From Bryobacterales bacterium (GTDB taxonomy: Bacteria; Acidobacteriota; Terriglobia; Bryobacterales; Bryobacteraceae): 64,000 nucleotides of DNA. Both the position numbers and the translations under genes were made by a program. Where the stretch lies: contig DAIDIH010000307.1 of NCBI GenBank assembly GCA_027459465.1, forward strand, positions 1 through 64,000, given 5' to 3'. Each line of letters begins with the position of its first letter. The first letter of the stretch is position 1. Positions 10,835 to 41,369 of the stretch are shown in pieces. The notes under the pieces were generated by a model. That model did not search any database. It worked only from the letters and a program-made list of their open reading frames with translations, and was not told where the DNA came from.

Positions 10835-10866
10835 GTAGTTACTTTGGCGCGGAGGCGGGGAGGAGG
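10835..10866. repeat. 32-bp direct repeat, copy 2 (overlaps the 3' end of the NrfD-cytochrome gene)
   Basis: Identical to 9596-9627; encodes the terminal LLPASAPK* on the minus strand. Confidence 0.95.
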
Positions 10867-14189: not shown

Positions 14190-14218
14190 TTACAGGTCAC
14201 CTCAGCTTAGTAAACACG

Positions 14219-15628
14219 TCATTCATAGACGATGGCTTTGTACAACAGGTCATGCAGACCGACGATGCGGCAGTCGATTTTGTGTTCCTCCATGAGTTCG
14301 CGCAACTGTTTTTTGCAGTTTGCACAGGGGGCGATGCAGTATTTGGCGCCGGTGGCCCGGATTTGTTCGGCTTTGGCGCGGCCGCCGACGAGAGTCCGGA
14401 ATGGACGGATTTCATCGATAGAGACCGTGCCTCCCCCGCCGCCGCAACAGATGTTTTCTCGCCCGCTGGGGGTCATTTCGACGTAGTTGGGGCAGAAGGC
14501 GCGGATCAGTTCGCGGGGTTGATCGACAATCCAACCGGAGCGGGCGATATTGCAGGGGTCGTGGTACGTTACCGGATCGAGAATGGCCTGGGGGTTGAGT
14601 TTAAGCTTGCCGCCTTTCCATGCCTGATGGGCGTACTCGATGATGTTGACGACAGGCAGAGGTTTGGATGCAAGACAGTAGGCGGGATAGAACTGCTTGG
14701 CGCAGCGCGAGGCGTGGCCGCACTCTCCGATGAGGATTTTGCGGGCGCGGAGCCGGGTGGCTTCGGCTTCTACTTTGTGGAGTACGTGTTCGAGAATCTG
14801 GTCGTTATAGAAGAGACCGTAGTTGATGGCGTCGAAATAAGCCGACCCTATGGTCCAACTGTCGCCGGTGGCTTTAAGGAGGGCGCCGATTCCCATGATG
14901 GTTTCGGCTTCCATAATGTAGTCGGAGACCGGGGCGAGGAAAAGATATTCGGCGTCGAACTGGTCAACGGGGAAAGAGGCTTCGATTCCCTGCTCGTCGC
15001 GCAGTTCGTCGGTGAGAAATTCCAAGGTGTCCTGCAAGGCGGGGAGCGGAACGGCGGAGGTGTTGCCGGTCTGGCCGGCAAGTTGTTCCCGGACGCTTAC
15101 GGCGAGGGCGCGCGGGGCGACGCCGATTTCGGAGAGGATATAACGGCCGAGGTGGGTGAGGAGGCCGTGATCGATGCCCATGGGACATTCGAGGCTACAG
15201 CGGCGGCAGGCCGTGCAGTCGTAGAAGGTTCCGGCCATGCGCTGGATGTCAGAGTCAGTGAGGCCGGGGTCGCCGAGCAGACGGCCTTGCAGGATGCCGG
15301 CCATCGTGAAATGGCGCCGGTAGACCTTCAGAAGCAGTTCGGAGCGGTAACAGGGGATGTCGTGGGTGTTGCCGGTGGCGAGAAAGACCTGGCAGTTCGT
15401 GGTGCAGCGCGAGCAGCGGGCGGCTACTCGTAAGTATTGATCGAGGGCGACGCGATAGTTAGAGTGCTTCAGGATGGCTGCGAAGGCGTCGAGAAAGCGG
15501 CGTGGTCGGTCACTTACATCGGCGTCTTCGACGTGATAGCGGACAGGGAGACGCTGTTTTTGAACGACGTCGTCCTTTTTGGCGATGGTGAAGGCGCGTT
15601 CGCGTTCCGGTTCGGTGAGCGGGGTCAT
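14219..15628 (-). CDS. DsrK/HmcF/TmcB-like HdrD-type 4Fe-4S protein (CCG domains)
   Basis: CSRCTTNCQVFLATGN, FYDCTACRRCSLECPMGID, YHDPCNIARSG...ENICCGGGGGTVSIDE; paralogous in layout to DsrK at 38604. Start refined to MTPLTEPERERAF. Confidence 0.88.
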   Translation of the reverse strand: MTPLTEPERERAFTIAKKDDVVQKQRLPVRYHVEDADVSDRPRRFLDAFAAILKHSNYRVALDQYLRVAARCSRCTTNCQVFLATGNTHDIPCYRSELLLKVYRRHFTMAGILQGRLLGDPGLTDSDIQRMAGTFYDCTACRRCSLECPMGIDHGLLTHLGRYILSEIGVAPRALAVSVREQLAGQTGNTSAVPLPALQDTLEFLTDELRDEQGIEASFPVDQFDAEYLFLAPVSDYIMEAETIMGIGALLKATGDSWTIGSAYFDAINYGLFYNDQILEHVLHKVEAEATRLRARKILIGECGHASRCAKQFYPAYCLASKPLPVVNIIEYAHQAWKGGKLKLNPQAILDPVTYHDPCNIARSGWIVDQPRELIRAFCPNYVEMTPSGRENICCGGGGGTVSIDEIRPFRTLVGGRAKAEQIRATGAKYCIAPCANCKKQLRELMEEHKIDCRIVGLHDLLYKAIVYE

Positions 15629-15807
15629 GCGGCCTCCCGTGCGCGCCGCTGAGGAAAATACCGGCAGCGGATTCCCGTGAGCCGAGGCAGAGCTGGGCAG
15701 GTGGCCCAAAGGAATCCGCCGCCGAGTCCCGGCCCGACTGGCGCCGGGCCAGGAATGCAGAAAAGCGCCATTGCGATTGGTCCGAACATGGCGAACCGGG
15801 AATGCAT
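15625..15807 (-). CDS. Small hydrophobic protein (~60 aa) between sat and the dsrK-like gene
   Basis: MHSRFAMFGPIAMALFCIPGPAPVGPGLGGGFLWATCPALPRL...; AAAGGCGAT before ATG; stop overlaps next ATG as ATGA at 15628-15625. Confidence 0.45.
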   Translation of the reverse strand: MHSRFAMFGPIAMALFCIPGPAPVGPGLGGGFLWATCPALPRLTGIRCRYFPQRRAREAA

Positions 15808-17383: not shown

Positions 17384-18241
17384 ATGCCAGTCCGAATGCT
17401 TACGACGGGTAAGGCCGCGGAGTTATGCTCGGTCAAACCCGATACCGTCCTGAAGTGGATTAAGAAAGGCCGGCTCGAGGCGACGCGAACGGCGGGCGGC
17501 CACTATCGCGTCGACGAGCACAATCTCCAACCATTCCTGCCGAAGACGAGTGAGCCCGAGGCGGAGACGCCGAAGGCTGCGGGACCGGTGGCATTGAACA
17601 GCGCCCGTCCGTTGCGGTGCTGGGAGTACATGAGCGAAGGCTTGCGCGAGGCCTGCCGCAACTGCGTGGCTTATCAGATACATGCGGCGTGGTGTTTTGA
17701 GCTGGTGAAGGTGGTCCACGGGGCGGGGCACGCGAAGAGTTTCTGTTCGGGGCCATGCAACGAGTGCCCTTATTACCGGCGGGTTCACGGGCAGCCGACG
17801 AATGTGCTGATCGTGACGCGGGATGAGGCGTTGATTCAAGCGATTGCGTGGCATCCGGATGGGTGTCTGGCGTGCCGGTTCGCGCGGAACGGTTATGATG
17901 CGTCGGCCATTATTTCGGTGTTCCGGCCGGCGCTAGTGATTGTCGGCGAGAGGGTAGCGGCGGACGAACCGGAACTGGTGAAGGCGCTGGCTAGCGATCC
18001 GCGGGCGGCCGGCGTGCGAATTTTACTCGGGGTTCGCCAGCGGCGGAGCGTTCCCTTGCCGGCGGGGAGCGGATTCGCCGGGACTATACAGATTCCGTTC
18101 TCGTGCGACCAGATAGCGACGTTTACCGGGAGGCTGCCGGTAGAGTTCGTGCCGGAGGAAGAGGCGCCGGCGCGGCCTACGCCGCCACAGGAGCGCGACG
18201 GTGGACGACGGACAAGAAGGCCCGAGCCCATTCCGGCGTAG
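17384..18241 (+). CDS. MerR/HTH_17-type DNA-binding protein with central Cys cluster and receiver-like C-terminal domain
   Basis: MLTTGKAAELCSVKPDTVLKWIKKGRLEATRTAGGHYRV HTH; CWEYM...CRNC...WCFELV...FCSGPCNECPYY; then VLIVTRDEALIQAIAW...ALVIVGERV. Confidence 0.75.
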   Translation: MPVRMLTTGKAAELCSVKPDTVLKWIKKGRLEATRTAGGHYRVDEHNLQPFLPKTSEPEAETPKAAGPVALNSARPLRCWEYMSEGLREACRNCVAYQIHAAWCFELVKVVHGAGHAKSFCSGPCNECPYYRRVHGQPTNVLIVTRDEALIQAIAWHPDGCLACRFARNGYDASAIISVFRPALVIVGERVAADEPELVKALASDPRAAGVRILLGVRQRRSVPLPAGSGFAGTIQIPFSCDQIATFTGRLPVEFVPEEEAPARPTPPQERDGGRRTRRPEPIPA

Positions 18242-19592
18242 CGAGGGCATGTAAGTGGGTGTAACTAGCCCAGACGTTCCTGGTGACGATGCCATCGCGG
18301 TGCTGGAAACAACCTTCTCCCTTACTTAGGGTGCAAACCGTTGACGGCAGGCTATTTTCGCCGGCGAGGATCCGCGAGTAGTGAAACTCGTGGCCCAACA
18401 TCCGAAAGCCGCGGGGGAAAAAAGGATTCGCGGCGTCGACGCTGAGCTCAGTGTATCCGTGGCCCTGGGGGGAAGGGCAGACTTCGACGTCGAAGGGGAG
18501 GACGGCCGCCATTTTGGAGCGCTCCGATCGCCAGAGGAGGTTGCGGGCGAGTAACATGAGGCCGCCGCATTCGGCGTAGATGGGAAGTCCATTGCGGGCG
18601 GCGTGGCGGATGGAGGTTAGAAATCCGGAATTTGCGGCTAGAGTCGCGGCGTGAGTTTCGGGGAAACCGCCGCCGATGTAGAGGCCGTCGAGCGAGTCCG
18701 GCAGCGCGGGAGAGGAAAGAGCGGAGAGGGGAATGAGTTCGGCGCCTTCGCGCTCGAGGGCTTCGAGGTTCTCCGGGTAGTAGAACGTGAAGGCTGAGTC
18801 AGTTACGTATCCAATCCTTAGGCGGGTTCCGTAGCAGCGTTGCGTGAGTTCGAGCGGAGAAGCGTCGAGGGCTGGGGCGGAGTTCGAGATTTCGAAGAGG
18901 CGGTCCCAGGCGATGTAGGTGCGCGTCGCGTCGAGGAGAGTTTGCGCCAAGGCAGAGGCGCCGGCGTGTTCGGCGGGGGGAACGAGGCCGAGGTGGCGCG
19001 AGGGCAGGAAGGCGGCATTGAGTTTGGGGATCGCGCCGAGCACGGGTATGTCACAGACGCTTTCAATGGCGTCACGGAGAATGCCCGAGTGGCGGTCGCC
19101 CGCGGTGTGATTCAAGATCACGCCGGCGATCGGGACTTCAGGATCGAGTTTCTGGCAGCCGAGCACGAGGGCGGCGGCAGTGCGCGTCATCTTGGTTGCA
19201 TTCAGGACTAGAATGACGGGGGCGCGCAGCGACTTGGCGAGGGCCCCGGTGCTGTGTGAGCCGTGTGCGTCGACGCCATCGTAGAGGCCGCGGTTGCCTT
19301 CTATCAGATTGCAGCCGGTGGGGACGGCATGGAGGGCGAAGGAACGGGCGGGCCGCTCGAAGCCCATCAGGAAGGTGTCGAGATTCCGGGCGGGCGCGCC
19401 GCTGGCCCAGGCGAGCCAGGCGGCGTCGATGTAGTCTGGGCCTTTCTTGAAGGCGCGGACCGGCATACCGCGGCGCCCGGCCTCGAGCAGCAGCGCGACG
19501 GATACGATGGTTTTTCCCGAATCGCCCGAAAGCCCGGCGACGACCAAACGCGGAGGCCCACCGGCGGCGGCGGCCTTTCCCGCTCGGTTCAT
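18177..19592 (-). CDS. dsrN: DsrN, cobyrinic acid a,c-diamide synthase-like amidotransferase (siroheme amidation)
   Basis: LVVAGLSGDSGKTIVSVALLLEAGRRGMPVRAFKKGPDYIDAAWL...NLIEGNRGLYDGVDAHG...GGFPETHAATLAANSG...YAECGGLMLLA...LGHEFHYSRI. Confidence 0.87.
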   Translation of the reverse strand: MNRAGKAAAAGGPPRLVVAGLSGDSGKTIVSVALLLEAGRRGMPVRAFKKGPDYIDAAWLAWASGAPARNLDTFLMGFERPARSFALHAVPTGCNLIEGNRGLYDGVDAHGSHSTGALAKSLRAPVILVLNATKMTRTAAALVLGCQKLDPEVPIAGVILNHTAGDRHSGILRDAIESVCDIPVLGAIPKLNAAFLPSRHLGLVPPAEHAGASALAQTLLDATRTYIAWDRLFEISNSAPALDASPLELTQRCYGTRLRIGYVTDSAFTFYYPENLEALEREGAELIPLSALSSPALPDSLDGLYIGGGFPETHAATLAANSGFLTSIRHAARNGLPIYAECGGLMLLARNLLWRSERSKMAAVLPFDVEVCPSPQGHGYTELSVDAANPFFPRGFRMLGHEFHYSRILAGENSLPSTVCTLSKGEGCFQHRDGIVTRNVWASYTHLHALATPEWARAFLSVVHRRAPVAA

Positions 19593-19837
19593 ACGCGGGA
19601 GGTATCAGGCGACGGCGGCAACTGGATGTAGGAACCGCCGAGGTAGCTGTAGACGCAACGTCCCGAATCGATGAGAATGCGGATGGCGTGCTTGCAGTCG
19701 TCCTTGGTGCAATCCGCGCCGTGGCGGCTGATCATCTCCTTGGTCAGGTCGCCCGCTTTCAGATTCTTCTTTCCGGCGTATTGCGCGACTAACTGGAACA
19801 TTTCTTCCGCCAGCGTTTCGGCGGAGATGGCAGGCAT
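19589..19837 (-). CDS. DsrD-like small winged-helix protein
   Basis: 82 aa: AEEMFQLVAQYAGKKNLKAGDLTKEMISRHGADCTKDDCKHAIRILIDSGRCVYSYLGGSYIQLPP; size and C-terminal wing pattern resemble DsrD; ATGA overlap with dsrN. Confidence 0.6.
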   Translation of the reverse strand: MPAISAETLAEEMFQLVAQYAGKKNLKAGDLTKEMISRHGADCTKDDCKHAIRILIDSGRCVYSYLGGSYIQLPPSPDTSRV

Positions 19838-20098: not shown

Positions 20099-20872
20099 TC
20101 ATGTACCCGATTGAGTGAGAGCACGGCACAGAGCACGGTCGGATGAGATCAAGCTTTGAAGGGATCTCTCCGAGGAGAGGGCGCGACGGTAGATCGTGCC
20201 ACCCCAGGACAGCGCCGCGAAGCTGAGGAGAATCAAGGCGGCGTCGAAAATGGTCCATCGCGAGACGCCGAAATAACGCAGGAACGTGACTCCGAGGGTA
20301 AACAAGGCGAGGCCGGTTCGAATGAGGGCGAGCGCCGTGCGTTCGCGGGCCAGTTCGGTGCGCTGCATCGAGAGACGCGTGCGCGTGACCGCGGTGGCCG
20401 TGCGTTGGTGGGCGAGTTCCGTGCGTGTTCCCGCCATGGTTGTGCGGTCGAGCGCGAGGGCGTTGCGGCGCTCGGCGAGGTGGGTGCGTTCCTCGGCCAA
20501 CATGACGCGGCGCTGGGCCATGTCGGTTCGCTGGACCGCGAGGCGCGTGCGTTCCTCAGCCTGCTCGGTGCGCTCGCGCGCCATCTCGGTGCGGATTTGC
20601 GCAAGTTCAGTGCTGCGCGTCGACAGGCGTGTCTGTTCGCGCGTGAGGGCGGTACGTTCGGCGGCGAGGCCGGTTTGAGTTTCGGCGTTCTCGGAGGTCT
20701 TCGAGGCGTAGAGCGCCAGGTTGGAGGTCGTCTGGGTGCGATCGCGGGCCAGCCTGTTTTGTTCCAGCAAGGCCGTGGTTTGGGACTCGCCCAGTTGCGC
20801 TAGGCGAGTGAGCATCGTTCTCAGCCACTCGGGATGTTTCGCGGAGGTGTTGTCCGTAGTTTGCTCTGCCAT
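20099..20872 (-). CDS. DUF202-like membrane protein with long xRTxLAx heptad-repeat coiled coil
   Basis: About 18 consecutive heptads (TELARER TALALIR TGLALFT...) leading into the DUF202-like TM pair LALFTLGVTFLRYFG...IFDAALILLSFAALSWGGTIY. Confidence 0.78.
   Translation of the reverse strand: MAEQTTDNTSAKHPEWLRTMLTRLAQLGESQTTALLEQNRLARDRTQTTSNLALYASKTSENAETQTGLAAERTALTREQTRLSTRSTELAQIRTEMARERTEQAEERTRLAVQRTDMAQRRVMLAEERTHLAERRNALALDRTTMAGTRTELAHQRTATAVTRTRLSMQRTELARERTALALIRTGLALFTLGVTFLRYFGVSRWTIFDAALILLSFAALSWGGTIYRRALSSERSLQSLISSDRALCRALTQSGT
20297..20674 (-). repeat. 21-bp-period in-frame repeats encoding the xRTxLAx heptads
   Basis: Period-7 amino-acid / 21-nt pattern (GTGCGTTCG...GCC-like units) visible across the block. 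Confidence 0.8.
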
Positions 20873-20922: not shown

Positions 20923-21828
20923 TTAGGACAGCGCGGTTCGATAGCCGGGTTCATACTGCACATCCTTGACTCCGGTAACGGCGCCTGCAACGTCCTGAAC
21001 GATCCGCAGTTTGCCGGCGGGCAGGAAAGGACCAACGAGGCGGACTGCGCCGGAGGCGGCAACGGCCTGTATTTCCAACTCGAGCGTTTCCGGATTTGCG
21101 ACCAGCGCGGCGAGAACTTCGGTGGCGAGACGCTCGTTTTCCAGTTGCGCCACCGACTCCGGAGTGGGTTGAAACTCGCCCTGCTCAAAAATCCTGACGA
21201 GCAATTCGCAGGCCCCGCGCTGGGTCCATCGTTCGAGATTCACGCAGAGGTCGTAGCCGGCGGGGTCGCGCAGGTCGATGCCATACATCATGCGCGCCCA
21301 TTGGAGGCGTTCGCTGTCGGTGGAGCGGATGTGATCGCGGGCTTCGGCCTCGCCCATACCCAACACGCGGCAGGTGCGTGAGACGCGCACCTCAAGCGGC
21401 GCGATGAGGCGGACGCGGACGAGGTGGGCCATGCGGGGAAGCAGCAGGTGGCCGGAGTAACCGAAATACGCGAGCCGGCCGGCTTGGGTGTACTGGAGAA
21501 GAGCACGGCGCATGAAGATCAGATAGGGCCGGCGAAGATCGCTGAACTGCTTGTAGTCGCGGTCCGCGCGAGAGATGACGGCTGCCACACGGGTGGCCAG
21601 CCCGCCGTAGCTGTTGACTTTGGTGATGAGATCCTCGCGCGTGACGCAGCGCACGCCGCCGTGAGCGGAGATGCAGGAGGCGATATTGGCGCCACCGGAC
21701 ATGGTTCCGCGGGAGACGAGCAGCGTGGTGGTAATATCGCCATCGGTACGGGGCAACGGATCGTGCTCCTTGCCAGGTCCGACTTCGCAGACCAGCGGCG
21801 GTTCCGTTGCCATAGCCGAGGCCGACAT
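20923..21828 (-). CDS. Cytidylate kinase-like (Cytidylate_kin2-type) protein with C-terminal BON-like domain
   Basis: TTTLLVSRGTMSGGANIASCISAHGGVRCVTREDLI...VRVSRTCRVLGMGEAEARDHIRSTDSERLQWARMMYGIDLRDPAGYDLCVNLER; C-terminus SGAVRLVGPFLPAGKLRIVQDVAGAVTGVKDVQYEP is BON-like. Confidence 0.65.
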   Translation of the reverse strand: MSASAMATEPPLVCEVGPGKEHDPLPRTDGDITTTLLVSRGTMSGGANIASCISAHGGVRCVTREDLITKVNSYGGLATRVAAVISRADRDYKQFSDLRRPYLIFMRRALLQYTQAGRLAYFGYSGHLLLPRMAHLVRVRLIAPLEVRVSRTCRVLGMGEAEARDHIRSTDSERLQWARMMYGIDLRDPAGYDLCVNLERWTQRGACELLVRIFEQGEFQPTPESVAQLENERLATEVLAALVANPETLELEIQAVAASGAVRLVGPFLPAGKLRIVQDVAGAVTGVKDVQYEPGYRTALS

Positions 21829-22182: not shown

Positions 22183-23919
22183 ATGGCGCCAGGTAAGGTA
22201 TACCTCGTCGGAGCCGGTCCTGGCCATCCGGAATTGTTGACTCTCAAGGCAGCCGCGTTAATTCAAAGCGGCGACGTGATTGTCTACGACCGGCTGGTAC
22301 AGGAAGAGGTGGTCGCTTTTTCCAAGCCGTCCGCCGAGCGGATCTACATGGGCAAGGCTCCGGGCCGCCACGAGTCCCGCCAGGAGGAGATCCACGAGCT
22401 ACTCGCTCGCAAGAGCCTGGAAGGAAAGGTGGTAGTTCGCCTGAAGGGCGGAGATCCGTTCCTGTTCGGGCGAGGGGGCGAAGAGGCGGAGTATCTTGCG
22501 GCGCATGGGATTCCGTTTGAAGTGGTTCCGGGCGTAAGCTCGGCGCTGGCGGCGCCCGAAAGCGCGGGAATCGCCATCACGCATCGGGATATCGCGTCGA
22601 GCGTGGCGATCGTGACGGGTCATGAATCGAAGCGCGAAACCAGCCGGATCGACTGGGCGGCCCTTTCCCGCATCGATACGGTGGTCTTCTTGATGGCGGT
22701 GAACAGCACGGGCCGGATCGCGAAGGAACTGATCGCGGGAGGACGGAGTCCGCAGACCCCGGCGGCAATGATCCAGATGGCGTATTGGCAAGGCGAACGA
22801 GTGATTTGCGGGACGCTTGCAACTATCGCCGGAGATGTAGAGCGCGCGGGGATTGAGCCTCCGGCGACGCTGGTGATCGGCCAGGCGGTGAAACTTCGCG
22901 AGAAACTGGCGGCTTCGCAGCGGGATCTTTACCGGGGCGCCGGCGCCGGGTTGCCAAGTCTGCCGGGCCCCGGGCCGGATCAGTTACTACGGCTCGCGAT
23001 CGGAGGACTGGGGACGCAGACGCTGCGACTGGGCCTTCTGGCGGGTGTGTTCGATCACTTGGAAAACTGGCAGACCGCGTCGTCGGTGGCTAAGTCGCTT
23101 AATTTGAACACACGCGCGGTGACCGAGTTGCTAGATTGCCTGAGAGCGCAGGGACTGGTCGAGGCAGGAGCGGAGGGTTACCGGAATCTTGAACTGGCCT
23201 CGCGTTACTTAGTAGACCGTTCGCCGCAGAGTTTGAAGGCGACGCTGTTGTACTACGCCTCGCTCGGAAGCGCGTCCGGCGCGCTGTGCCGGTATGCGCT
23301 GGATGGACGGCAACCGGGTAGCCCGATGCTGAATCACGGCATTTACGAGGCCTCGTGCGAGAACCTGGCGCAGTTCAACGTGCCATTTGTTATCGATCAT
23401 CTGGATTTGTCCCGAAGGAGTCCGGTATTGATCGCGGGTTGGGGGTGCCGGAAATACCATGAAGCGGTTACCGCCCGGTGGCCGCACCTGACGGTGGACG
23501 CGCGGAATCCGTTTGCCGCGGAGAGGAATGGGCATGGCGCGCCGGTTCTGCCTTCGGGACCGTTTCGTGCAATTCTACTATCCGGCGTGCTGGCCTCATG
23601 CCATCGCGGCGAGGTACAGCGACTGCTTCAATCCGCGGCGGCGGCGCTGGAGAGCGATGGAATCCTCGCGCTGCAGGACGCTTTTCTACCGGATTCCGAG
23701 CTTCCGGCGGAGGTGACGATGCTGGAGACGCTAGGCCGTCACGTGACGCGCGGAGGCTGCGCAGCGTGGCCGCTCGAACGGCTTCGGGATACGCTTTCGC
23801 CGCTCGGCCTGGGTGCCATGGAGACCCATTCGCTTCCGGCGGCGTCGCAACTGGTCATCGCGTGGCGCCGGATAGGCTCGGAAACGCACACTCCAAAACC
23901 CATAAAGTCCGGCAGCTAA
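22183..23919 (+). CDS. Uroporphyrinogen-III C-methyltransferase (SUMT/CobA) fused to O-methyltransferase-like domain
   Basis: KVYLVGAGPGHPELLTLKAAALIQSGDVIVYDRLV...VRLKGGDPFLFGRGGEEAEYLAAHGIPFEVVPGVSSA...PQTPAAMIQMAYWQGERVICGTLATI is SUMT; ~310 extra aa with a winged-helix dimerisation-like segment and a degenerate SAM motif (VLIAGWGCRKYHEAV). Confidence 0.85.
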   Translation: MAPGKVYLVGAGPGHPELLTLKAAALIQSGDVIVYDRLVQEEVVAFSKPSAERIYMGKAPGRHESRQEEIHELLARKSLEGKVVVRLKGGDPFLFGRGGEEAEYLAAHGIPFEVVPGVSSALAAPESAGIAITHRDIASSVAIVTGHESKRETSRIDWAALSRIDTVVFLMAVNSTGRIAKELIAGGRSPQTPAAMIQMAYWQGERVICGTLATIAGDVERAGIEPPATLVIGQAVKLREKLAASQRDLYRGAGAGLPSLPGPGPDQLLRLAIGGLGTQTLRLGLLAGVFDHLENWQTASSVAKSLNLNTRAVTELLDCLRAQGLVEAGAEGYRNLELASRYLVDRSPQSLKATLLYYASLGSASGALCRYALDGRQPGSPMLNHGIYEASCENLAQFNVPFVIDHLDLSRRSPVLIAGWGCRKYHEAVTARWPHLTVDARNPFAAERNGHGAPVLPSGPFRAILLSGVLASCHRGEVQRLLQSAAAALESDGILALQDAFLPDSELPAEVTMLETLGRHVTRGGCAAWPLERLRDTLSPLGLGAMETHSLPAASQLVIAWRRIGSETHTPKPIKSGS

Positions 23920-24087: not shown

Positions 24088-24699
24088 ATGACAGAAGAAA
24101 TCACGGCCGATCTGAGCAATGAATTCCTGAGTAGTGCCAGGGTCTTTGCGTGGTCGGTGCGTGAAATCATGGAGCGGGCCGTGTTACGAGAGGTCGCCGG
24201 CGACAAGCTGACTTTCTCTCAAATGAAGCTGCTGTATCTGGTGGCCCACACGGACACGCTTCGGATCGGGGACGCAGCGGCGTTTTTGAACGTCACCTGC
24301 GCCGCGGCGAGCAAAGCGGTGGACAAACTGGTGCGGCGGAAGTTACTTCGCCGTGTGTCGCCGCAGGAGGACCGCCGGACGATCCGGCTCGCCTTGACGG
24401 AAACGAGTCGGCGTCTGATGGAAGCCTATCAAAGAGCTCGGGATATTCGCGCGCGGGCCGCATTCGACCAGTTCGCCCCGGATGAACTGAGGCGGACGTC
24501 GGAACTTCTGGACCGTCTGGCCGGGGCGTTCGTTGCCGGAAGTTCCGAGCCGGATGCGGTCTGCATGCAGTGCGAGATCTATTTTCGCGACCGGTGCCGG
24601 TTCGGGGAGTACGGCCGGCGCAACTGTTTTTACCAACGTCACAAGAGCCAGTGCCACTCGCTTATCGCGAGTGACGCTTCCGAAAGAGAGGTGGAGTAA
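24088..24699 (+). CDS. MarR-family regulator with C-terminal Cys-rich tail
   Basis: wHTH LRIGDAAAFLNVTCAAASKAVDKLVRRKLLRRVSPQEDRRTIRLALTETSRRL; C-terminal CMQCEIYFRDRCRFGEYGRRNCFYQRHKSQCH. Confidence 0.82.
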   Translation: MTEEITADLSNEFLSSARVFAWSVREIMERAVLREVAGDKLTFSQMKLLYLVAHTDTLRIGDAAAFLNVTCAAASKAVDKLVRRKLLRRVSPQEDRRTIRLALTETSRRLMEAYQRARDIRARAAFDQFAPDELRRTSELLDRLAGAFVAGSSEPDAVCMQCEIYFRDRCRFGEYGRRNCFYQRHKSQCHSLIASDASEREVE

Positions 24700-25139
24700 T
24701 GCCAAGTTATGTCAATCCGGACAAGTGCGACGGGTGCAAGGCGCTGGACAAAACCGCCTGCCAGTACATTTGTCCGAACGACTTAATGGTGCTGGATAAG
24801 AAGACGTCGAAGGCCTACAACCGGGACGTCACGATGTGCTGGGAGTGCTACAACTGCGTCAAGATCTGCCCGAATCAGGCGATCGAAGTTCGCGGTTATG
24901 CGGATTTCGTTCCACTGGGCGCGTCGGCGACGCCGTTGCGTTCCTCGGATTCGATTTTGTGGACCGTGAAGTTCCGCAACGGAACGATCAAGCGGTTCAA
25001 GTTCCCCATCCGGACCACTCCGGAAGGAACGGCGAAGCCGGACGGCGGGTACGAGACGAAGGGCAACCTCAACTCGCCCGCTCTGTATACGGAACCGGCG
25101 TCGACGGGCCTTGCGGAAGTTTTCACGTTGCGGCACTGA
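24699..25139 (+). CDS. aprB: Adenylylsulfate reductase subunit beta
   Basis: MPSYVNPDKCDGCKALDKTACQYICPNDLMVLD...MCWECYNCVKICPNQAIEVRGYADFVPLGASATPLR. Confidence 0.96.
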   Translation: MPSYVNPDKCDGCKALDKTACQYICPNDLMVLDKKTSKAYNRDVTMCWECYNCVKICPNQAIEVRGYADFVPLGASATPLRSSDSILWTVKFRNGTIKRFKFPIRTTPEGTAKPDGGYETKGNLNSPALYTEPASTGLAEVFTLRH

Positions 25140-25155
25140 CGGGAGGGTACACAAA

Positions 25156-27087
25156 ATGGCCGATTTTGAAACTGTAATTGTTGAAACCGACTTGTTGATT
25201 CTGGGCGGCGGAATGGCCGCTTGCGGCGCTGCCGTCGAGGCCGCGTACTGGGCCAAGCAGAACGGACTGAAGGTGACGCTGGTGGATAAGGCGGCGGTGG
25301 ACCGCTCCGGCGCGGTGGCGATGGGGCTGTCCGCGATCAACCAGTACGTAGGCCTGAAGGACGGCGCGAACACGGTGAAGGACTATGTCGACTATGTTCG
25401 CAACGACCTGATGGGCATCACACGGGAAGACCTGGTGGCCAACATCGCGCGCCACGTGGACTCGACGGTTCACCTGTTCGAGAAGTGGGGCCTGCCGATC
25501 TGGAAGGACGAGAAAGGCGCCTACGTGCACGAGGGCCGCTGGCAGTTGATGATCAACGGCGAATCGTACAAGGTGGTGGTGGCCGAGGCGGCTAAGAACG
25601 CGTTGCGGGAGAGCGGCGTGGGCGAGATCTACGAGCGCATCTTCATCGTGGGGCCGCTGATGGAAGGCGACCGCTGCGCGGGCGCGGTTGGGTTCTCGGT
25701 TCGCGAGAACAAATTCTACGTGTTCAAGGCGAAAGCGACGCTGGTGGCGATGGGCGGCGCAGTGCACGTGTTCAAGCCACGAAGTTCCGGCGAAGGCATG
25801 GGGCGAGCGTGGTATCCACCATGGAACTCCGGTTCGTCGGCGTACTTCACGCTGAAGGCCGGCGCAGAGATGACGTGCCAGGAAGTGCGCTTCATTCCGG
25901 TCCGTTTCAAGGACGCTTACGGTCCGGTGGGCGCGTGGTTCCTTTTGTTCAAGTCCCGCGCCACGAATTCGCAGGGCGGCAACTACATGGTCGAGCGCCA
26001 GGGCGAACTCGAGAAGTGGGGACCTTATGGGCGCGTGAAGCCGGTACCGGCGAACCTGCGTAACTATCTCGGCATGTTAGACACGATGGAAGGCAAAGGC
26101 CCGATCTACATGCGGACCGAAGAAGCCATCGGGAAGATCGCCGAAAGTTACAAAGACGACCCGAAGGCTTACAAGAAGAAGATGAAGGAACTGGAATCGG
26201 AGGCGTGGGAGGATTTCCTGGACATGACGGTGTCTCAGGCGATCCTGTGGGCCTCGACCAACCTTCAGCCGGAAGAACGCAGCTCCGAGATCGCCGCGGC
26301 CGAGCCATATTTTATCGGATCGCACTCGGGCGCGTCCGGCGCCTGGATCAGCGGGCCGGAAGATCTGCAGACCGACAAGACACGGAAAGAATACTTCTGG
26401 GGCTACGACCACATGTCGACGGTTCCAGGGCTATTCTGCGCCGGCGACGCGTCGGGAGCATCCAGCCATAAGTTCTCGTCGGGCTCGCACGCCGAGGGCC
26501 GGATCGCGGCTAAGGCTGCGGTCAAATACGTGGTGGAGCACAACGCGCCGCCGAAGGTGGAGCAGAGCACGATCGACGCGATTAAGGCTGAAATCCTGAA
26601 GCCGCTCGAAGTGTTCGCGCAGCACAACGGTGCGACCACGGATCCGGACGTCAATCCGAACTACATCAAGCCACGGATGTTCATGTTCCGTCTGCAGAAG
26701 ATCATGGACGAATACGCCGGCGGCATTACCGCGCAGTTCACCACCAACGAATCGCTGCTGAACCGGGCGATCGAGTTACTTCAGTTTTTGAAGGAAGACT
26801 CCGAGAAGCTGGCGGCTTCGGACCTTCATGAGCTGATGCGTTGCTGGGAGAACGTTCACCGCATGTGGCAGGCCGAGGCTCACGTGAGAACGATGCTGTT
26901 CCGCGAAGAGACGCGTTGGCCGGGCTACTACTTCCGCTCTGACAAACCCAAGCTCGACGACGAGAAGTGGCATGTGTTCGCGAATTGCCGCTTCGATGCG
27001 AAGAGCAACGCGTGGGAGATGAAGACCCGTCCGGTTCTGCCCGTTTTCGAGCAGAAGGCGGCGGGCCGCCCGCTGGCCGCAGCCTGA
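25156..27087 (+). CDS. aprA: Adenylylsulfate reductase subunit alpha
   Basis: MADFETVIVETDLLILGGGMAACGAAVEAAYWAK...FIPVRFKDAYGPVGAWFLLFKSRATNSQGG...GLFCAGDASGASSHKFSSGSHAEGRIAAKAAVKY. Confidence 0.97.
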   Translation: MADFETVIVETDLLILGGGMAACGAAVEAAYWAKQNGLKVTLVDKAAVDRSGAVAMGLSAINQYVGLKDGANTVKDYVDYVRNDLMGITREDLVANIARHVDSTVHLFEKWGLPIWKDEKGAYVHEGRWQLMINGESYKVVVAEAAKNALRESGVGEIYERIFIVGPLMEGDRCAGAVGFSVRENKFYVFKAKATLVAMGGAVHVFKPRSSGEGMGRAWYPPWNSGSSAYFTLKAGAEMTCQEVRFIPVRFKDAYGPVGAWFLLFKSRATNSQGGNYMVERQGELEKWGPYGRVKPVPANLRNYLGMLDTMEGKGPIYMRTEEAIGKIAESYKDDPKAYKKKMKELESEAWEDFLDMTVSQAILWASTNLQPEERSSEIAAAEPYFIGSHSGASGAWISGPEDLQTDKTRKEYFWGYDHMSTVPGLFCAGDASGASSHKFSSGSHAEGRIAAKAAVKYVVEHNAPPKVEQSTIDAIKAEILKPLEVFAQHNGATTDPDVNPNYIKPRMFMFRLQKIMDEYAGGITAQFTTNESLLNRAIELLQFLKEDSEKLAASDLHELMRCWENVHRMWQAEAHVRTMLFREETRWPGYYFRSDKPKLDDEKWHVFANCRFDAKSNAWEMKTRPVLPVFEQKAAGRPLAAA

Positions 27088-27460: not shown

Positions 27461-28247
27461 AAACGAAGTAGCGGCCGGGAGCGTCTCCATGCCGTGGGAC
27501 CGCCTCGGACTGGATGACCGGTTCCACTTCCACTGCGGACGGGATCTGGATTGCTTCACGCACTGTTGCCGCGACGTGACGATTGTCCTGACACCTTACG
27601 ATATTTTGCGGCTTAAGCACGCGTTGAAGATCGGCTCAGAGGAATTCCTGGAGAAGTACACGTTATCGCCGCATTTTCCGAACCAGAAGTTTCCGATCGT
27701 CATTTTCAAAATGAACGAGGACACCAAGCAGTGTCCATTCGTTTCCGCGGAAGGGTGCGCGGTATATCGCGACCGGCCGTGGTCCTGCCGCATGTACCCG
27801 CTCGGCACGGCGGAGCCGAAGAACCTGACACCGGACGAGCAGGGCTTTCACTTCGTTGTGCTCGAAGAACTGTGTCACGGGCACAGCGCGGGACAGGAGT
27901 GGAGCGTCCGGGACTGGGTTGCCAATCAGGGCGTGGAAGAGTTCGAAATGATGGGGGCGTCGTTTAAGTACCTTACGCTCCACGACTACTGGGATAACGG
28001 GCCCGAACTTACGCCGGCGCAGGCGGAGATGTTCTACATGGCCTGTTATGACCTGGACCGGTTCCGGCGGTTTGTTTTCGAAACGCGATTCCTGGAACTG
28101 CTCGACGTGGATGAAGCGCGGATCGAGGCGATTCGCGCGCATGACGAGGAGTTACTCGAGTTCGCCATTGAGTGGCTGCGATTTGCCCTTTTCCGTGAGC
28201 CCACGATGAAGGTCAGCCGGGATGCCGTGGTGGAGGCGAAAGCGTGA
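27450..28247 (+). CDS. YkgJ-family cysteine-cluster protein (UPF0153-like)
   Basis: FHFHCGRDLDCFTHCCRDVTIVLTPYDILRLK...GCAVYRDRPWSCRMYPLG. Confidence 0.8.
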   Translation: MPVENEVAAGSVSMPWDRLGLDDRFHFHCGRDLDCFTHCCRDVTIVLTPYDILRLKHALKIGSEEFLEKYTLSPHFPNQKFPIVIFKMNEDTKQCPFVSAEGCAVYRDRPWSCRMYPLGTAEPKNLTPDEQGFHFVVLEELCHGHSAGQEWSVRDWVANQGVEEFEMMGASFKYLTLHDYWDNGPELTPAQAEMFYMACYDLDRFRRFVFETRFLELLDVDEARIEAIRAHDEELLEFAIEWLRFALFREPTMKVSRDAVVEAKA

Positions 28248-29506
28248 ACCTGGAGCCGCGCAAACCCGTGCTTGTCATCGGCGGAGGGATCGCCGGGTTG
28301 ACGGCGGCGGTGGAACTGGACGATGCCGGATGCGCTGTGATTCTTGTTGAAAAGTCTGCCAGCCTTGGCGGGCAGGTGGCGCGGCTTCACCAGTATTTCC
28401 CCAAGTTGTGCCCGCCTACGTGCGGAATTGAGATGCACTTGCGGCGCATTCGAGACAATGATGCGATCACCCTTCATACGAACGCCGAGGTGACGGAGGT
28501 CAGCGGGACGCGGGGCGATTATTGCGTGACGGTGCGTGTGGGTCCGGACTACGTTAGCGAGGCGTGCACGGCGTGCGGGGAGTGCGTGGCGGCGTGTCCG
28601 GTTGAGCGGCCCGATCCGTTTAACTATGGACTAACTAAGACGAAGGCGATGTATCTGCCGGGCGGCATACCTTATCCGGTGCGCTATGCGATCGACCGGA
28701 AGGTGTGCCCTCCGGAGTGCAGCGCGTGCGAGCGGGTGTGCCGGTATGGGGCGGTAAACCTCCGTGCCGCGGCCGATTGGCGGAAGTACCATGTTTCGGC
28801 GGTCATCGCGGCGACAGGTTGGGAGCCGTATGATGCGGGGCGGATCGAGTATCTCGGCTTCGGGCGGTGCGCCAACGTCGTCACCAACGTGATGGTGGAG
28901 CGGATGGCAGCGGCTGATGGGCCGACGGGTGGTGTGATTCGCCGGCCTTCCGACGGGCGACCGCCGCGATCGGTCGCGTTCGTACAGTGCGCCGGGTCGC
29001 GGGATGAGAATCATCTTCCTTATTGCTCGTCCGTATGCTGCGCGGCAACGATCAAACAGATCTCTTACCTTCAGGCGCAGCAGCCCGAGACGGCGATCAC
29101 AGTGTTCTATATCGACCTGCGGACTCCGGGGCGGCTGGAGGAGTTTCGAAACCGGGTGCTGCCGGGCGCCAACGTGCAACTTGTAAAGGGCAAGGTTGCG
29201 CGGGTGGAGGAGAAAGCGGAATCGGGCAATATTGCCGTGACGGCCGAGGATGTGATGTCCGGACGGAAGGCGACGTCGGAGTTTGACCTCGTAGTGTTGG
29301 CGACGGGGATGGCGCCAAGGACGCAGGGTCTGCCGGCGGTGTTTGAGGCGGATGAATATGGATTCCTTGCGAGCGGAGACGGCGACGGGTTGCTAAGCGC
29401 GGGATGCGTGCATCGGCCTGGGGAAGTTTCTTCCTCAGTGCGAAACGCCACGGCGGCGGCGCTTAAGGCCTACCAGGCCGCGAGACGGAGCGGACACCAT
29501 GCCTAA
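28244..29506 (+). CDS. qmoA: Quinone-modifying oxidoreductase subunit QmoA (HdrA-like)
   Basis: VLVIGGGIAGLTAAVELDDAGCAVILVEKSASLGGQVARLHQYFPKLCPPTCGIEMHLRRI; CTACGECVAACPVERPDPFNYGLTKTKAMYLPGGIPYPVRYAID. Confidence 0.93.
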   Translation: MNLEPRKPVLVIGGGIAGLTAAVELDDAGCAVILVEKSASLGGQVARLHQYFPKLCPPTCGIEMHLRRIRDNDAITLHTNAEVTEVSGTRGDYCVTVRVGPDYVSEACTACGECVAACPVERPDPFNYGLTKTKAMYLPGGIPYPVRYAIDRKVCPPECSACERVCRYGAVNLRAAADWRKYHVSAVIAATGWEPYDAGRIEYLGFGRCANVVTNVMVERMAAADGPTGGVIRRPSDGRPPRSVAFVQCAGSRDENHLPYCSSVCCAATIKQISYLQAQQPETAITVFYIDLRTPGRLEEFRNRVLPGANVQLVKGKVARVEEKAESGNIAVTAEDVMSGRKATSEFDLVVLATGMAPRTQGLPAVFEADEYGFLASGDGDGLLSAGCVHRPGEVSSSVRNATAAALKAYQAARRSGHHA

Positions 29507-31637
29507 GAAGGTTGGAGTCTACCTATGCACGGGCTGTTCGATCGGTGAAACCATCGATACGGACGAACTCGTCAAGGTCGCTTCGAGTGAGTACAAGGCG
29601 GCGAAGTGCCGAACGCATGGTTTTCTGTGCGGGGCCGAAGGCCGGGAACTCATTCGCGAGGATCTGGCCGCGGGCGCGGTGGACACGGTGGTGATTGGCG
29701 CGTGCTCGGCGCGGTCGAAGCCGGAGGCGTTTTCGTTCAACCACGGCACGGTGATCGAGCGGGTGAACCTGAGGGAACACGTGGCGTGGAGTCATCCGGC
29801 CAAACACGAAGACACGCAGATCCTGGCCGCGGACGTTCTTCGCATGGGCATCACGCGGGCGCTCAAGACGGAACCGCTCGAACCTCTTTCGGAGGAAATT
29901 TGCAGCACGGTGCTGGTGGTGGGCGGGGGGATTGCGGGATTGACGGCGGCGCTGCAGGCGGCGGAAGCGGGTCACGACGTGGTGCTAGTGGAAAAATCGG
30001 CGTCGCTGGGCGGATTCATGGCCGGACAGAAGAAACGGTTCCCGGCGAACGCTCCGTACACAAAGCTTGAGGAAGTCGACGGGTTCGGCGAACTGATTCG
30101 CAGGGTTACTTATCATTTACGGATCCGCATTTACACGTCGTCGCACATTGTGAAGACCGAGGGCCAGCCTGGCAACTTCAACGTGACGATTGGAACCGGC
30201 GCCGGCGAGGTTCGGGAACGGATTGGCGCGATTGTGGTGACGACGGGTTGGAAGCCGTATGACGCAGGCCGGTTGACGGAATTGGGTTACGGCCTGAGCC
30301 CCGACGTGATCACGAACGTCGAGTTCGAGCGGATGGCGCAAGGGCCGATTACCCGGCCGTCGGACGGCAAACCGGTGCATTCGGTGCTGTTCGTGCAGTG
30401 CGCGGGATCGCGGGATCCGAAGCATCTGCCGTACTGCTCGAGTGTGTGCTGTTTGGCGACGCTGAAGCATGTTGTGTACATCCATGAGCGGAACCCGGAG
30501 ACCGAGGTGTTTGTCATCTACAAGGACATGCAGACGCCGGGTCCGCAGGAGGCCTTCTACCGCACCGCGCAGGATCATCCGCTGAACTTCTTTACTAAGG
30601 GTGAAGTTACGGCGGTGGAGAAGACGGCGCAAGGGACACTGAAGGTCACGGCGCACAACACGCTGATCGGGGAGACGGCGGTTTTTGAAGTTGACCTCGT
30701 GGTGCTGGCTACCGGGATGGTTCCTCAGTCCGAGGGAGAGACGTTGAATCTGACTTACCGGCAGGGGCCCGAGTTACCGGTGCTGGTTGATGGTTTTCCG
30801 GATTCGCATTTCATCTGCTTCCCCTATGAGACGCGGCGGACGGGGATTTATGCGGCGGGCGCGGTGCGGGCGCCGATGGACTCCGAGCAGGCTCGCGAAG
30901 ACGCGATGGGAGCGGCGCTGAAGGCCATCCAGTCGATTGAACTGGCGCGGCGTGGCCGGGCCGTGCATCCGAGGGCGGGCGACGCTTCGCTGCCGAGTTT
31001 CCTGCTGCAGCGGTGCACGCAATGCAAGCGGTGCACAGAAGAATGCCCGTTCGGAGCGTTGGACGAAGACGCCAAGGGCACGCCAAAGCTCAATCCGTAC
31101 CGCTGCCGGCGGTGTGGCGTGTGCATGGGCGCGTGTCCGGAAAGAATTGTTTCTTTCAAGAACTACTCGGTGGACATGATCGCGTCGATGATTAACGCGA
31201 TCGAGATTCCCGAGGAAGACGAGGAGAAGCCGCGGATCCTGGCGTTCATGTGCGAGAACGATGCAATCCCGGCGCTGGACATCGCTGGCTTCGAGCGGCA
31301 GCAGTATGACGCGAGCGTGCGGGTGATTCCGCTGCGGTGCCTGGGCTCGCTGAATGTCGTCTGGATCGCCGATGCGTTGAGCCGGGGATTCGACGGTGTG
31401 ATGCTGATCGGCTGTAAGTACGGGGACGACTATCAGTGTCACTTCACGAAGGGCAGCGAGCTCGCCGCCCGCCGCATGGAGAACTTAAAGGAGACGCTGC
31501 AGCGCTTGCAACTTGAGCCGGAGCGCCTGCAGTTCACGCAACTTTCGCTGGACGAGTGGAAGAGCCTGCCGGCGCTGTTTGACAGCTTTGCGGAGCGGAT
31601 AAGGGAGATCGGGCCGAATCCTTACAAGGGTCTGTAA
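29499..31637 (+). CDS. qmoB: Quinone-modifying oxidoreductase subunit QmoB (HdrA plus MvhD-like)
   Basis: VGVYLCTGCSIGETIDTDELVKVA...VLVVGGGIAGLTAALQAAEAGHDVVLVEKSASLGGFMAGQKKRFP; CTQCKRCTEECPFGALDEDAKGTP; C-terminal GCKYGDDYQCHFTKGSELA. Confidence 0.94.
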   Translation: MPKKVGVYLCTGCSIGETIDTDELVKVASSEYKAAKCRTHGFLCGAEGRELIREDLAAGAVDTVVIGACSARSKPEAFSFNHGTVIERVNLREHVAWSHPAKHEDTQILAADVLRMGITRALKTEPLEPLSEEICSTVLVVGGGIAGLTAALQAAEAGHDVVLVEKSASLGGFMAGQKKRFPANAPYTKLEEVDGFGELIRRVTYHLRIRIYTSSHIVKTEGQPGNFNVTIGTGAGEVRERIGAIVVTTGWKPYDAGRLTELGYGLSPDVITNVEFERMAQGPITRPSDGKPVHSVLFVQCAGSRDPKHLPYCSSVCCLATLKHVVYIHERNPETEVFVIYKDMQTPGPQEAFYRTAQDHPLNFFTKGEVTAVEKTAQGTLKVTAHNTLIGETAVFEVDLVVLATGMVPQSEGETLNLTYRQGPELPVLVDGFPDSHFICFPYETRRTGIYAAGAVRAPMDSEQAREDAMGAALKAIQSIELARRGRAVHPRAGDASLPSFLLQRCTQCKRCTEECPFGALDEDAKGTPKLNPYRCRRCGVCMGACPERIVSFKNYSVDMIASMINAIEIPEEDEEKPRILAFMCENDAIPALDIAGFERQQYDASVRVIPLRCLGSLNVVWIADALSRGFDGVMLIGCKYGDDYQCHFTKGSELAARRMENLKETLQRLQLEPERLQFTQLSLDEWKSLPALFDSFAERIREIGPNPYKGL

Positions 31638-31639
31638 CG

Positions 31640-32785
31640 ATGACGACGGAAGCACCAATCCGGCCTGACACGGCGTTAATCGGGGACCTGATGCGGATGG
31701 GCGCCGGGGACGTGAAGAAATGCATGCAGTGCGCGACGTGCACGTCGGCATGCAACCTTTCAACAGCCGAGTATCCTTTTCCGCGCAAGCAGGTGTTGGC
31801 GGCGCAGTGGGGCCTCAAGAATGAGTTACTCGAAGACCCGTCGCCGTGGCTGTGTTTTTACTGCGGGCAGTGCTCGAAGACCTGCACGCGGGGCGCCAAG
31901 CCCGGCGAGATCATGATGGCGCTGCGGCGGTATTTGACAACCGAGTACGACTGGACAGGCCTGTCGCGACTTTTGTACCGCTCGGCCGTTGGCGAAATTG
32001 GCGTTCTCCTTCTGGTTGCACTTCTGGTGGTGGCGCTGTTCACCATACCGGCGAATTTCGGCTTTCGGCTACTGAACCAATCCGGGCCGGCGCCGCTCGC
32101 GAACGTGATGCTGGACAGGTTCGCACCGAAGCACGTCGTGCATATCGCGGACATGCTGCTGGCGGTGTTGCTCGGCTCGCTGCTGCTCGTGAATGCGGGC
32201 CGGATGTTCAAGCTACTGACGGCGCGGCATCCGATTCCGGCGCGGTTCTATTTCCGCCACGCTGCCGGCCTGCTCGCGCAGGGCGTAACTCAGATCCGCT
32301 GGAAGGGCTGCGGGGATAGCGACGCGATGCGGAACTGGGTCCGGCATCTCGCGTTGGTGACGGGATACGGAACGATATTCACTCTGGTGGTTGTGTTTCT
32401 GCCGTGGTTCCAGGTGGAGAACTCGGGGTTCCACTGGACGGCGATTCTGGGTTACTACGCTACAGCGATCCTGCTGTCGACGACGGCGTGGATGCTGTAC
32501 GACCGGATTACTAAGCGGACCGAGATGCACCGGTTGAGCCACTTATCCGACTGGATGTTTCCCGTGCTCTTGTTCCTGACGGCGGCATCGGGAATTCTGG
32601 TGCACATCCTGCGGCGCATGGACCGGCCGATGCCCACTTACGAGATGTACATGGTTCATCTGGCGATTGCGGTGCCGATGCTGGTGGTGGAAGTGCCGTT
32701 TGGAAAATGGGCGCACCTTCTGTACCGGCCGCTGGCGATTTTCATTGTCGAGGCCAGAGAAGACGCGAAGCGTTGTGGGGTTTGA
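31640..32785 (+). CDS. qmoC: Quinone-modifying oxidoreductase subunit QmoC (HdrC/HdrE-like)
   Basis: [71 protein letters not shown] plus TM cytochrome b part. Confidence 0.93.
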
Positions 32786-32807: not shown

Positions 32808-33992
32808 GTGGACGAGAAGAAACCCAAGACGGAGCTGCTGGATGAGCTGGAAAAGGGACCGTGGCCCAGCTTCGTCACCGAAATTAAGAAAGCGACGGAA
32901 ACCGGCCCGATGGCGAGCGACCTGCTGGGGCAGCTTGAGCTTTCCTATCACGAGAAAAGAGGGCACTGGAAGCATGGCGGCATTGTGGGCGTTCTCGGAT
33001 ACGGCGGGGGCGTGATCGGCCGGTACAGCGACGTTCCCGAGCAGTTCCCCCATGTTGCGCACTTCCATACAATGCGAATCAACCATCCTTCGGGGTGGTT
33101 CTATACGTCGGAGGCACTGCGGACGCTGTGCGATATCTGGGAGCGGCATGGGTCGGGACTGACGAACATGCACGGCTCGACGGGTGACATCGTGTTTCTT
33201 GGAACCCGGACGGAAGAACTCGAGCCGGTGTTCAAGGAACTGACGGAGGCGGGGTTCGACCTGGGCGGCTCCGGGTCGGCGATGCGGACGCCTTCGTGCT
33301 GCGTCGGCGAGGCACGATGCGAGTGGGCTTGCTACGACACGATGAAGCTTTGCAACGACCTGACGCAGGCGTATCAAGATGAGTTACACCGGCCTTCGTT
33401 CCCTTATAAGTTCAAGATCAAGTGCGCGGGCTGCCCGAACGACTGCGTGGCGGCCGAGGCGCGCGCCGACCTGTCGGTGATCGGCATCTGGAAGGACGAC
33501 ATCCAGCAGGACGACGAGGCGGTGGCGAGATATGCAGCCGAGGGGCTCGACATCCAGAAAGACGTCTGCGAAAACTGTCCGACGCGCTGCATGAGCTGGA
33601 ACGGAACACTGAAGATTAACAATCGCGAGTGTGTGCGGTGCATGCATTGCATCAACGTGATGCCTAAGGCGTTGCGGCGTGGTAAAGAGAAGGGCGCGGC
33701 GCTGCTGATCGGCTCCAAGGCGCCGATCGTGCAGGGCGCGCTGCTGTCTTCGGTTCTGGTTCCATTTGTGCCGCAGGAGGAGCTGTACGACACGATCAAA
33801 GAGCTCGTTTCGCGCGTATGGGATTTCTGGGATGAGTACGGAAAGAACCGCGAGCGAGTCGGCGAACTGATCCAGCGCGTGGGCATGGCGAATTTCCTGG
33901 ATGCGATCGGACTGGATCCGGCGCCTGAGATGGTTTCCGCGCCGCGCGACAACCCTTATATCTACTTCCAGAAGAAGAGCGAGAACGAATAG
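32808..33992 (+). CDS. dsrA: Dissimilatory sulfite reductase subunit alpha
   Basis: GTG start 32808 with AAGGAG upstream; [89 protein letters not shown]. Confidence 0.97.
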
Positions 33993-34005
33993 CGGAGTTA
34001 CTACG

Positions 34006-35091
34006 ATGGCGACCACTATTACCCCCAAACGAATTACCGATATCGGACCGCCGCACTACGAGAAGTTTCTGCCTCCGGTGATCAAGAGGAACTACGGAGC
34101 GTGGAAATACCACGAGGTCTTGGAGCCGGGCGTCCTGTGCCATGTCTCGGAAACCGGCGAGAAGCTGTACAGCGTGCGCGCGGCCTCGCCGCGTCTGCTC
34201 AGCATTCAAACGATCCGTCTTTTTGCCGATCTCGCGGATAAGTACTGCGGCGGCTACCTGCGTTTCACGAGCCGGAACAATGTTGAGTTTCTTCTCGACA
34301 AACTGGACCGGGTGGTGCCCCTGAAGGCGGACCTGGCGGCGGCCGGCTTCCCGATCGGCGGGACACGGGCCACGATCAGCAACATCGTTCACACCCAGGG
34401 ATGGGTTCACTGCCATTCTTCGGCAACCGACGCCTCCGGCATCGTGAAGTCGGTGATGGACGCACTTTTTGGGTACTTCACCGAGGAGAAATTGCCGGCC
34501 AAGCTGCGTATCGCGTTGGCGTGCTGTCTGAATATGTGCGGCGCGGTGCATTGCTCGGATATCGCCATCCTGGGCGTTCACCGGCGGCCGCCGAAGATCC
34601 AGCATAACCTGATCAGCAAAGTGTGCGAGGTGCCGACGCTCATTTCGTCCTGTCCTACCGGCGCCATTCGTCCGGCCACGGTGGATGGGCGGCAATCGGT
34701 GGAGGTGATCGAGGAGCAGTGCATGTTCTGCGGGAACTGCTATACGGTGTGTCCGGCGATGCCGATGAACGATCCGGAAAACGACGGCATTTCGATCTGG
34801 GTCGGCGGGAAAGTGAGCAATGCGCGGAGCGAGCCGAAGTTTACCAAGCTGGCGATTCCGTTTCTGCCGAACAATCCGCCCCGCTGGCCGGAGGTGGTGA
34901 ATGCGGTGACGAACATCGTCGAGACTTACGCGAAGAACGCGCGGCGGTTTGAGCGGATGGGCGAGTGGATTGAGCGCATCGGCTGGCCGCGGTTCTTCGA
35001 GTTGACGGGCATCGAATTCACGCGATACCACATCGACGATTTCAAGAATGCAGGTTTGACGTTCGCCAGGTCTGCTCACTTGCGGTTCTGA
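34006..35091 (+). CDS. dsrB: Dissimilatory sulfite reductase subunit beta
   Basis: [100 protein letters not shown]. Start refined to 34006. Confidence 0.97.
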
Positions 35092-38600: not shown

Positions 38601-38603
38601 GTT

Positions 38604-41360: not shown

Positions 41361-41369
41361 GCATACGTC

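Follow-up and report, generated by a model that had tools for sequence, protein, structure and literature searches.

One gene of the 64,000-nucleotide stretch analysed here (the window) encodes a uroporphyrinogen-III C-methyltransferase (SUMT), the enzyme with which siroheme synthesis begins, joined in a single chain to a degenerate relative of the O-methyltransferases. Siroheme is the cofactor of sulfite reductase. The protein is best explained as a SUMT of the DsrWa type that is dedicated to the Dsr system and carries a pseudo-O-methyltransferase with a non-catalytic role, either in handling the product or as a scaffold. We favour this explanation over its rivals and give it about an even chance of being right.

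The fusion gene

The gene, its domains and its surroundings are listed in Table 1. Two starts are possible for the open reading frame, GTG at 22162 or ATG at 22183, with the stop ending at 23919; the ATG is favoured by the alignment of family members. The initial annotation had described an uninterrupted frame that joins a complete SUMT to a winged-helix dimerisation segment and a methyltransferase fold, and all of these parts are confirmed by profile matches, to TIGR01469, to PF08100 and to COMT-type structures. The C-terminal domain (CTD) spans about residues 261-563 and shows homology to O-methyltransferases of the caffeate type. Fusions of this kind make up a conserved family of proteins of ~566 amino acid residues. 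Since the identical architecture is found in 12 further genomes, it is neither a chance product nor an assembly join. A recent random read-through join is ruled out by the same architecture in four families and by purifying selection. The window genome is 94.6 % complete with 7.3 % contamination; the surveyed genomes are mostly fragmented, and some are incomplete or contaminated.

Table 1. Position of the fusion gene, its domains and the surrounding genes in the window
Feature	Position	Strand	Evidence
Hmc/Tmc-like set	10839-15709	-	
dsrN-like cobyrinate a,c-diamide synthase homologue	18177..19592	-	TIGR00379, 380 bits
Small DsrD-like protein, 82 aa, paired with dsrN	19589..19837	-	conserved cluster c17
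257-aa DUF202 protein	20099-20872	-	
Cytidylate-kinase-like protein	20923-21828	-	PF13189
SUMT/pseudo-O-methyltransferase fusion gene, 578 aa	22183..23919	+	single unbroken ORF
SUMT domain, residues 4-239	22192..22899	+	TIGR01469; alignment to CysG/1PJQ and solved SUMTs; tree
Linker LREKLAASQRDLYRG...PGP	22900..22962	+	alignment of family members
O-methyltransferase-type winged-helix dimerisation domain, residues 265-345	22975..23217	+	PF08100 above cut-off
Degenerate Rossmann methyltransferase domain, about residues 410-563	23410..23871	+	profile matches to COMT-type structures; hhalign
Former motif I VLIAGWGCRKYHEAV, residues 415-429	23425..23469	+	Asp to I417, Gly to W420, Gly to R423
N442, in place of the motif II acid	23506..23508	+	alignment, 13 fusions and 21 O-methyltransferases
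Catalytic His position, now A471	23593..23595	+	alignment, 13 fusions and 21 O-methyltransferases
aprB and aprA	24699..27087	+	TIGR02060, TIGR02061 above cut-off
qmoA-like, qmoB-like (HdrA-type) and qmoC-like	28244..32785	+	HdrA2 partial; NF038018 212 bits, below cut-off
dsrA and dsrB	32838..35091	+	TIGR02064, TIGR02066 above cut-off
DsrMKJOP redox set	37605-42542	+	

Distribution and association with dsr genes

Thirteen genomes of Acidobacteriota, from four families, carry the fusion: f1 (G000, which is the window genome, G528, G437 and G449), f2 (G073), f28 (G591) and f4 (G002, G032, G058, G018, G109, G118 and G136). The G528 locus is identical to locus L004 of the metagenome-assembled genome Acidobacteria bacterium WY3.bin84. 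From its dsr content, f4 might be the marine family FEB-10/Sulfomarinibacteraceae (PMC8528874), which is only a guess. The searches covered overlapping sets of genomes: 297 and, in a larger draw, 396 from the phylum, 299 from one class, and the 13 of a second class. The fusions are clearly separated by score, at 409-528 bits, from the next matches at 120 bits or less, which are ordinary methyltransferases.

Each of the 13 fusion genomes carries dsrA (TIGR02064), the copies of G136 and G109 being cut by contig ends. A check proposed with the initial annotation was whether the fusion is common in genomes that do not have dsr genes. Within Acidobacteriota it is not: in the phylum draw it occurs in none of the 270 genomes lacking dsrA and in 9 of the 27 that have it (Fisher 1e-10, kinship ignored). 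The corresponding values, again with kinship ignored, are 5/17 dsrA-positive genomes versus 0/282 others in the class draw (3e-7), and 7/7 versus 0/6 in the class of G002 (6e-4). Neither dsrA nor any SUMT was found in G100 and G127, two incomplete f4 genomes from the genus of G118. A single-sequence scan of the whole genome collection matched only one relative, from the same genus, and the CTD was not found in plasmids and viral contigs. The fusion is not described in the open-licence papers found by keyword search. Within Acidobacteriota there is strong support for a dedication of the SUMT fusion to the Dsr system.

The apr and dsr neighbours named in the initial annotation are real, since aprBA, qmo-like genes and dsrAB all lie in the window. 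In the window and in G528 the fusion gene, a MarR-type regulator, aprBA, two small genes and the qmo-like genes follow each other in one direction; dsrAB come after the qmo-like genes in the window, while the contig of G528 stops in qmoB. The dsrN and DsrD-like genes of the window are on the opposite strand. In many dsr-positive Acidobacteriota the DsrD-like cluster c17 lies next to dsrN or dsrB and is highly conserved, although the 82-residue protein has no match among Pfam models or PDB sequences. Pairs of dsrD and dsrN have been published for Acidobacteria (PMC6018796).

The loci of the relatives are arranged differently. A gene for a DsrV-like precorrin-2 dehydrogenase is located directly downstream of the fusion in all seven f4 genomes. 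The order in G073 is a YeiH-like gene, the fusion, a DsrD-like gene and dsrN, adjoining dsrMKJOP and dsrAB, and in G121, which belongs to the same genus, the genes follow in that order too, with the SUMT unfused. In G449 there is no recognised dsr gene within about 8 kb of the fusion, and this counts against the explanation that we favour. Precorrin-2 dehydrogenase (TIGR01470), which converts precorrin-2 to sirohydrochlorin, was not found in the f1 genomes G000, G528, G437 and G449; CbiX is present in three of these four.

Several other genes of the surroundings are worth recording. The cytidylate-kinase-like gene is divergent from the fusion gene and lies beside or near it in f1 and f4. Such a protein is also encoded in G002, G032, G058, G118, G136 and G437, and its gene is found near unfused SUMTs too (G339, G407 and G447), often with TauE/SafE sulfite-exporter-like genes alongside. 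The 257-residue protein, whose gene sits between the cytidylate-kinase-like and DsrD-like genes, combines a DUF202 membrane end with long 7-residue repeats (LAxxRT-like). The Hmc/Tmc-like set consists of DsrK-, HmcB-, HmcC- and HmcE-like proteins, of which the HmcC-like one is extended at its C-terminus by a stretch with several cytochrome c motifs of the CxxCH type.

The SUMT half

The window protein matches TIGR01469 over model positions 1-237 of 238 with 292 bits, the cut-off being 185, and its SUMT half can be aligned end to end with CysG and other solved SUMTs. Residues D36 and D91, both invariant in the fusion family, are equivalent to D248 and D303 of CysG, which together with their neighbours we take to be the catalytic and SAM-binding residues. 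An exception among the key residues of CysG is the GxGxGD Asp, D227, whose place is taken by His15. The window protein thus has VGAGPGH (residues 10-15, 22210-22227) instead of the usual VGAGPGD, as do most dsr-type SUMTs, and this His is invariant in the fusions. The match to the CysG model is confined to the SUMT part (model 217-450), and the fused dehydrogenase/chelatase TIGR01470 is absent.

The fusion is the only SUMT detected in the seven f4 genomes and G073, so that the SUMT half presumably works. A second SUMT is present in the f1 genomes. In the window genome it is a CobA-HemD fusion located in a hemA-hemC operon (L043), and presumably represents the housekeeping copy.

The C-terminal domain

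The dimerisation domain of O-methyltransferases (PF08100) is recognised in the window protein with 30-31.6 bits at a cut-off of 25.6, and in 10 of 10 family members tested at E<=0.1. No Pfam methyltransferase model is above its cut-off in the window protein, and PF00891 gives no match. When a profile of ten CTDs was compared with solved structures, the matches included RedM (4e-17), 3mcz (3e-15), HIOMT (2e-14) and DSYB (2e-14), as well as the BchU structure 1x19 with an E-value of 0.03. The CTDs were also compared with 21 canonical Acidobacteriota O-methyltransferases, chosen by similarity to the CTD, and hhalign gave a probability of 99.9 % over 307 columns. The AlphaFold model of the CTD, made from a two-sequence input, has a mean pLDDT of 39.

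The degraded SAM motif I that had been pointed out in the window protein proved to be a property of the whole family. The Asp of this motif is present in all 21 O-methyltransferases and in none of the 13 fusions. Its second Gly is found in 19/21 versus 0/13, with Trp instead in 11 of the fusions, and its last Gly in 19/21 versus 1/13. The ribose-binding Asp of motif II is likewise kept in 21/21 O-methyltransferases and lost in all fusions, 12 of which have Asn. About 20 residues of the adenine loop, with GD among them, are deleted in 13/13 fusions, and the catalytic His, present in 21/21 O-methyltransferases, occurs in none of them. A missing His need not by itself make the domain inactive, as RedM of the COMT-type family is active without it; however, active relatives of this kind retain the Gly-rich motif and the acid (PMC10784701).

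At the same time the fusions have acquired residues of their own. R432-W433, P443, P508, G524 and W529 are specific to the fusions and invariant in all 13, while N442, R519 and C526 are fusion-specific in 12; D499 is likewise strictly invariant in the Rossmann part. Several of the new invariants sit at the former cofactor cleft. In close pairs the dN/dS of the CTD is 0.104 (window/G528), 0.128 (G018/G109) and 0.169 (G002/G032), while that of the SUMT half is 0-0.07, so the CTD evolves faster; it is most diverged in G073, and both points weigh against the explanation that we favour. The low dN/dS and the new invariants argue that the CTD is not decaying. Judged from the sequences, it would bind no SAM and has most likely become a pseudo-methyltransferase without methylating activity.

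Origin of the fusion

In the SUMT tree the fused halves group with the unfused SUMTs of G121, G203, G304, G245, G007 and G447 in one clade (100/100). This dsr-type clade has 19 rows, and CobA-HemD and the other sampled SUMTs fall outside it. All CTDs also form a single clade (100/100), and on this tree the CTD arose once. The fused state requires four changes on the SUMT clade (3-5 in bootstraps; two are forced by well-supported branches), a pattern that fits one fusion followed by losses or transfers. The first part of the fusion linker, RDL, recurs near the C-terminus of the unfused SUMTs of G121 and G304, and these tails could have resulted from truncation.

No convincing remnant of the CTD was found downstream of the unfused dsr SUMTs. 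The best matches to a standalone CTD in unfused genomes (G121, G353, G369, G007 and G339) are canonical O-methyltransferases with intact motifs, encoded on contigs other than that of dsrA. Close relatives with a CTD-less SUMT are G121, compared with G073 (same genus, same locus), and G203, compared with G591 (same genus). Since such dsr-positive relatives have a SUMT of the same clade without the CTD, the domain is not essential to the pathway and siroheme as such can be made in its absence, a point against the explanation that we favour.

Comparison with known systems

It is useful to compare the fusion with DsrWa, the SUMT homologue of the dsr loci of peatland Acidobacteria, where DsrV is the dehydrogenase (Hausmann et al. 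2018, PMC6018796). The role of the gene is the same by position and homology, DsrWa being encoded together with dsrN, with dsrV for the precorrin-2 dehydrogenase and with further dsr genes. A C-terminal O-methyltransferase-like domain, as found in the fusion, is not described for DsrWa in the main text of that paper. By its position beside dsr genes and in a clade apart from the housekeeping SUMTs, the fusion SUMT is assigned to the DsrWa type.

CysG likewise combines a SUMT with a further homodimeric module on one chain, and the SUMT halves align over their whole length. However, the extra module of CysG is N-terminal, NAD-dependent and catalytic, while that of the fusion is C-terminal and a relic of an O-methyltransferase; the dehydrogenase, fused in CysG, is a separate neighbouring gene in f4. 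CobA-HemD, which occurs in the window genome, also has a C-terminal extension on a SUMT, but its HemD part is an enzyme unrelated to the CTD and its SUMTs are outside the dsr-type clade. The COMT-type O-methyltransferases (RedM, HIOMT, DSYB and BchU) have the same domain order and fold as the CTD by profile comparison, and differ from it in possessing the SAM and catalytic signatures and the adenine-loop segment and in lacking the new invariants.

Possible role of the C-terminal domain

To our knowledge, the supply of siroheme or siroheme amide to DsrAB has received little attention, and in organisms with dsr genes it is mainly from gene neighbourhood that the steps beyond precorrin-2 have been assigned. 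The initial annotation supposed that the extra domain may modify, carry or scaffold a siroheme intermediate dedicated to DsrAB. The dedication is upheld by the presence of dsrA in 13/13 genomes and by the dsr neighbours, whereas SAM-dependent modification is disfavoured by the loss of the SAM and catalytic signatures across the 13 members. A carrier or scaffold role would fit.

In the mechanism that we favour, the N-terminal half, given its family match and conserved catalytic residues, would convert uroporphyrinogen III and two SAM to precorrin-2. The CTD would have lost SAM binding and methylation, while its dimerisation domain was kept and its cleft rebuilt yet conserved. It would rigidify the SUMT dimer and may dock or hold the unstable product (precorrin-2 or sirohydrochlorin) for the DsrV dehydrogenase and the DsrN amidase, an arrangement somewhat comparable to the joining of a second module to the SUMT in CysG. 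The SUMT dimer, helped by the CTD, would thus deliver precorrin-2 into the Dsr branch of siroheme or siroheme amide synthesis. Binding of a tetrapyrrole or a partner by the CTD, and channelling, are what we infer. The further step, that the CTD is a new tetrapyrrole-handling domain whose rebuilt SAM cleft passes precorrin-2 or sirohydrochlorin from SUMT to DsrV and DsrN in a dedicated channel for the sulfite reductase cofactor of Acidobacteriota, is put forward tentatively.

Among the rivals, a purely structural CTD that stabilises the dimer and has no specificity for ligand or partner, so that any dimer clamp would do, is rather doubtful. Of the recognisable parts, the dimerisation domain is conserved best, being detected in every member tested. 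On the other hand, the Rossmann part also contains strict invariants (R432-W433, P443, D499, P508, G524 and W529) that a clamp alone would not need. SUMT itself is a dimer, as in CysG and the P. denitrificans SUMT, and the CTD can be missing from close relatives, both of which are in keeping with a clamp.

It is unlikely that the CTD is a regulatory sensor or a docking domain for a partner such as DsrN, DsrV or a Dsr maturation factor which does not touch the tetrapyrrole. The neighbours do vary by lineage, from DsrV in f4 and DsrD/DsrN in f2 to apr/qmo/dsrAB with the MarR regulator in f1, as would suit a module tied to the Dsr system and not to one enzyme.

A still active, unusual SAM-dependent methyltransferase that acts on a siroheme precursor to give a modified DsrAB cofactor is very improbable: BchU, a relative by its COMT-type fold, does methylate a chlorin carbon (PMC10784701) and RedM works without the His, but all or nearly all fusions have lost the motif I Asp and glycines, the motif II Asp and the adenine-loop segment, a Trp mostly occupies the place of a SAM-loop glycine, and the acids of both motifs are kept by every O-methyltransferase of the comparison set. 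The CTD as the missing precorrin-2 dehydrogenase or ferrochelatase is disfavoured, as a protein of its own matches TIGR01470 in f4 and in G073.

The fusion could mark its SUMT as belonging to the dissimilatory pathway. As the sole SUMT of several sulfate-reducing lineages, with a methylation-dead domain that has been maintained, it gives a direct handle on the supply of the DsrAB cofactor, and the naturally unfused versions of G121 and G203 offer a comparison with the full-length fusion.
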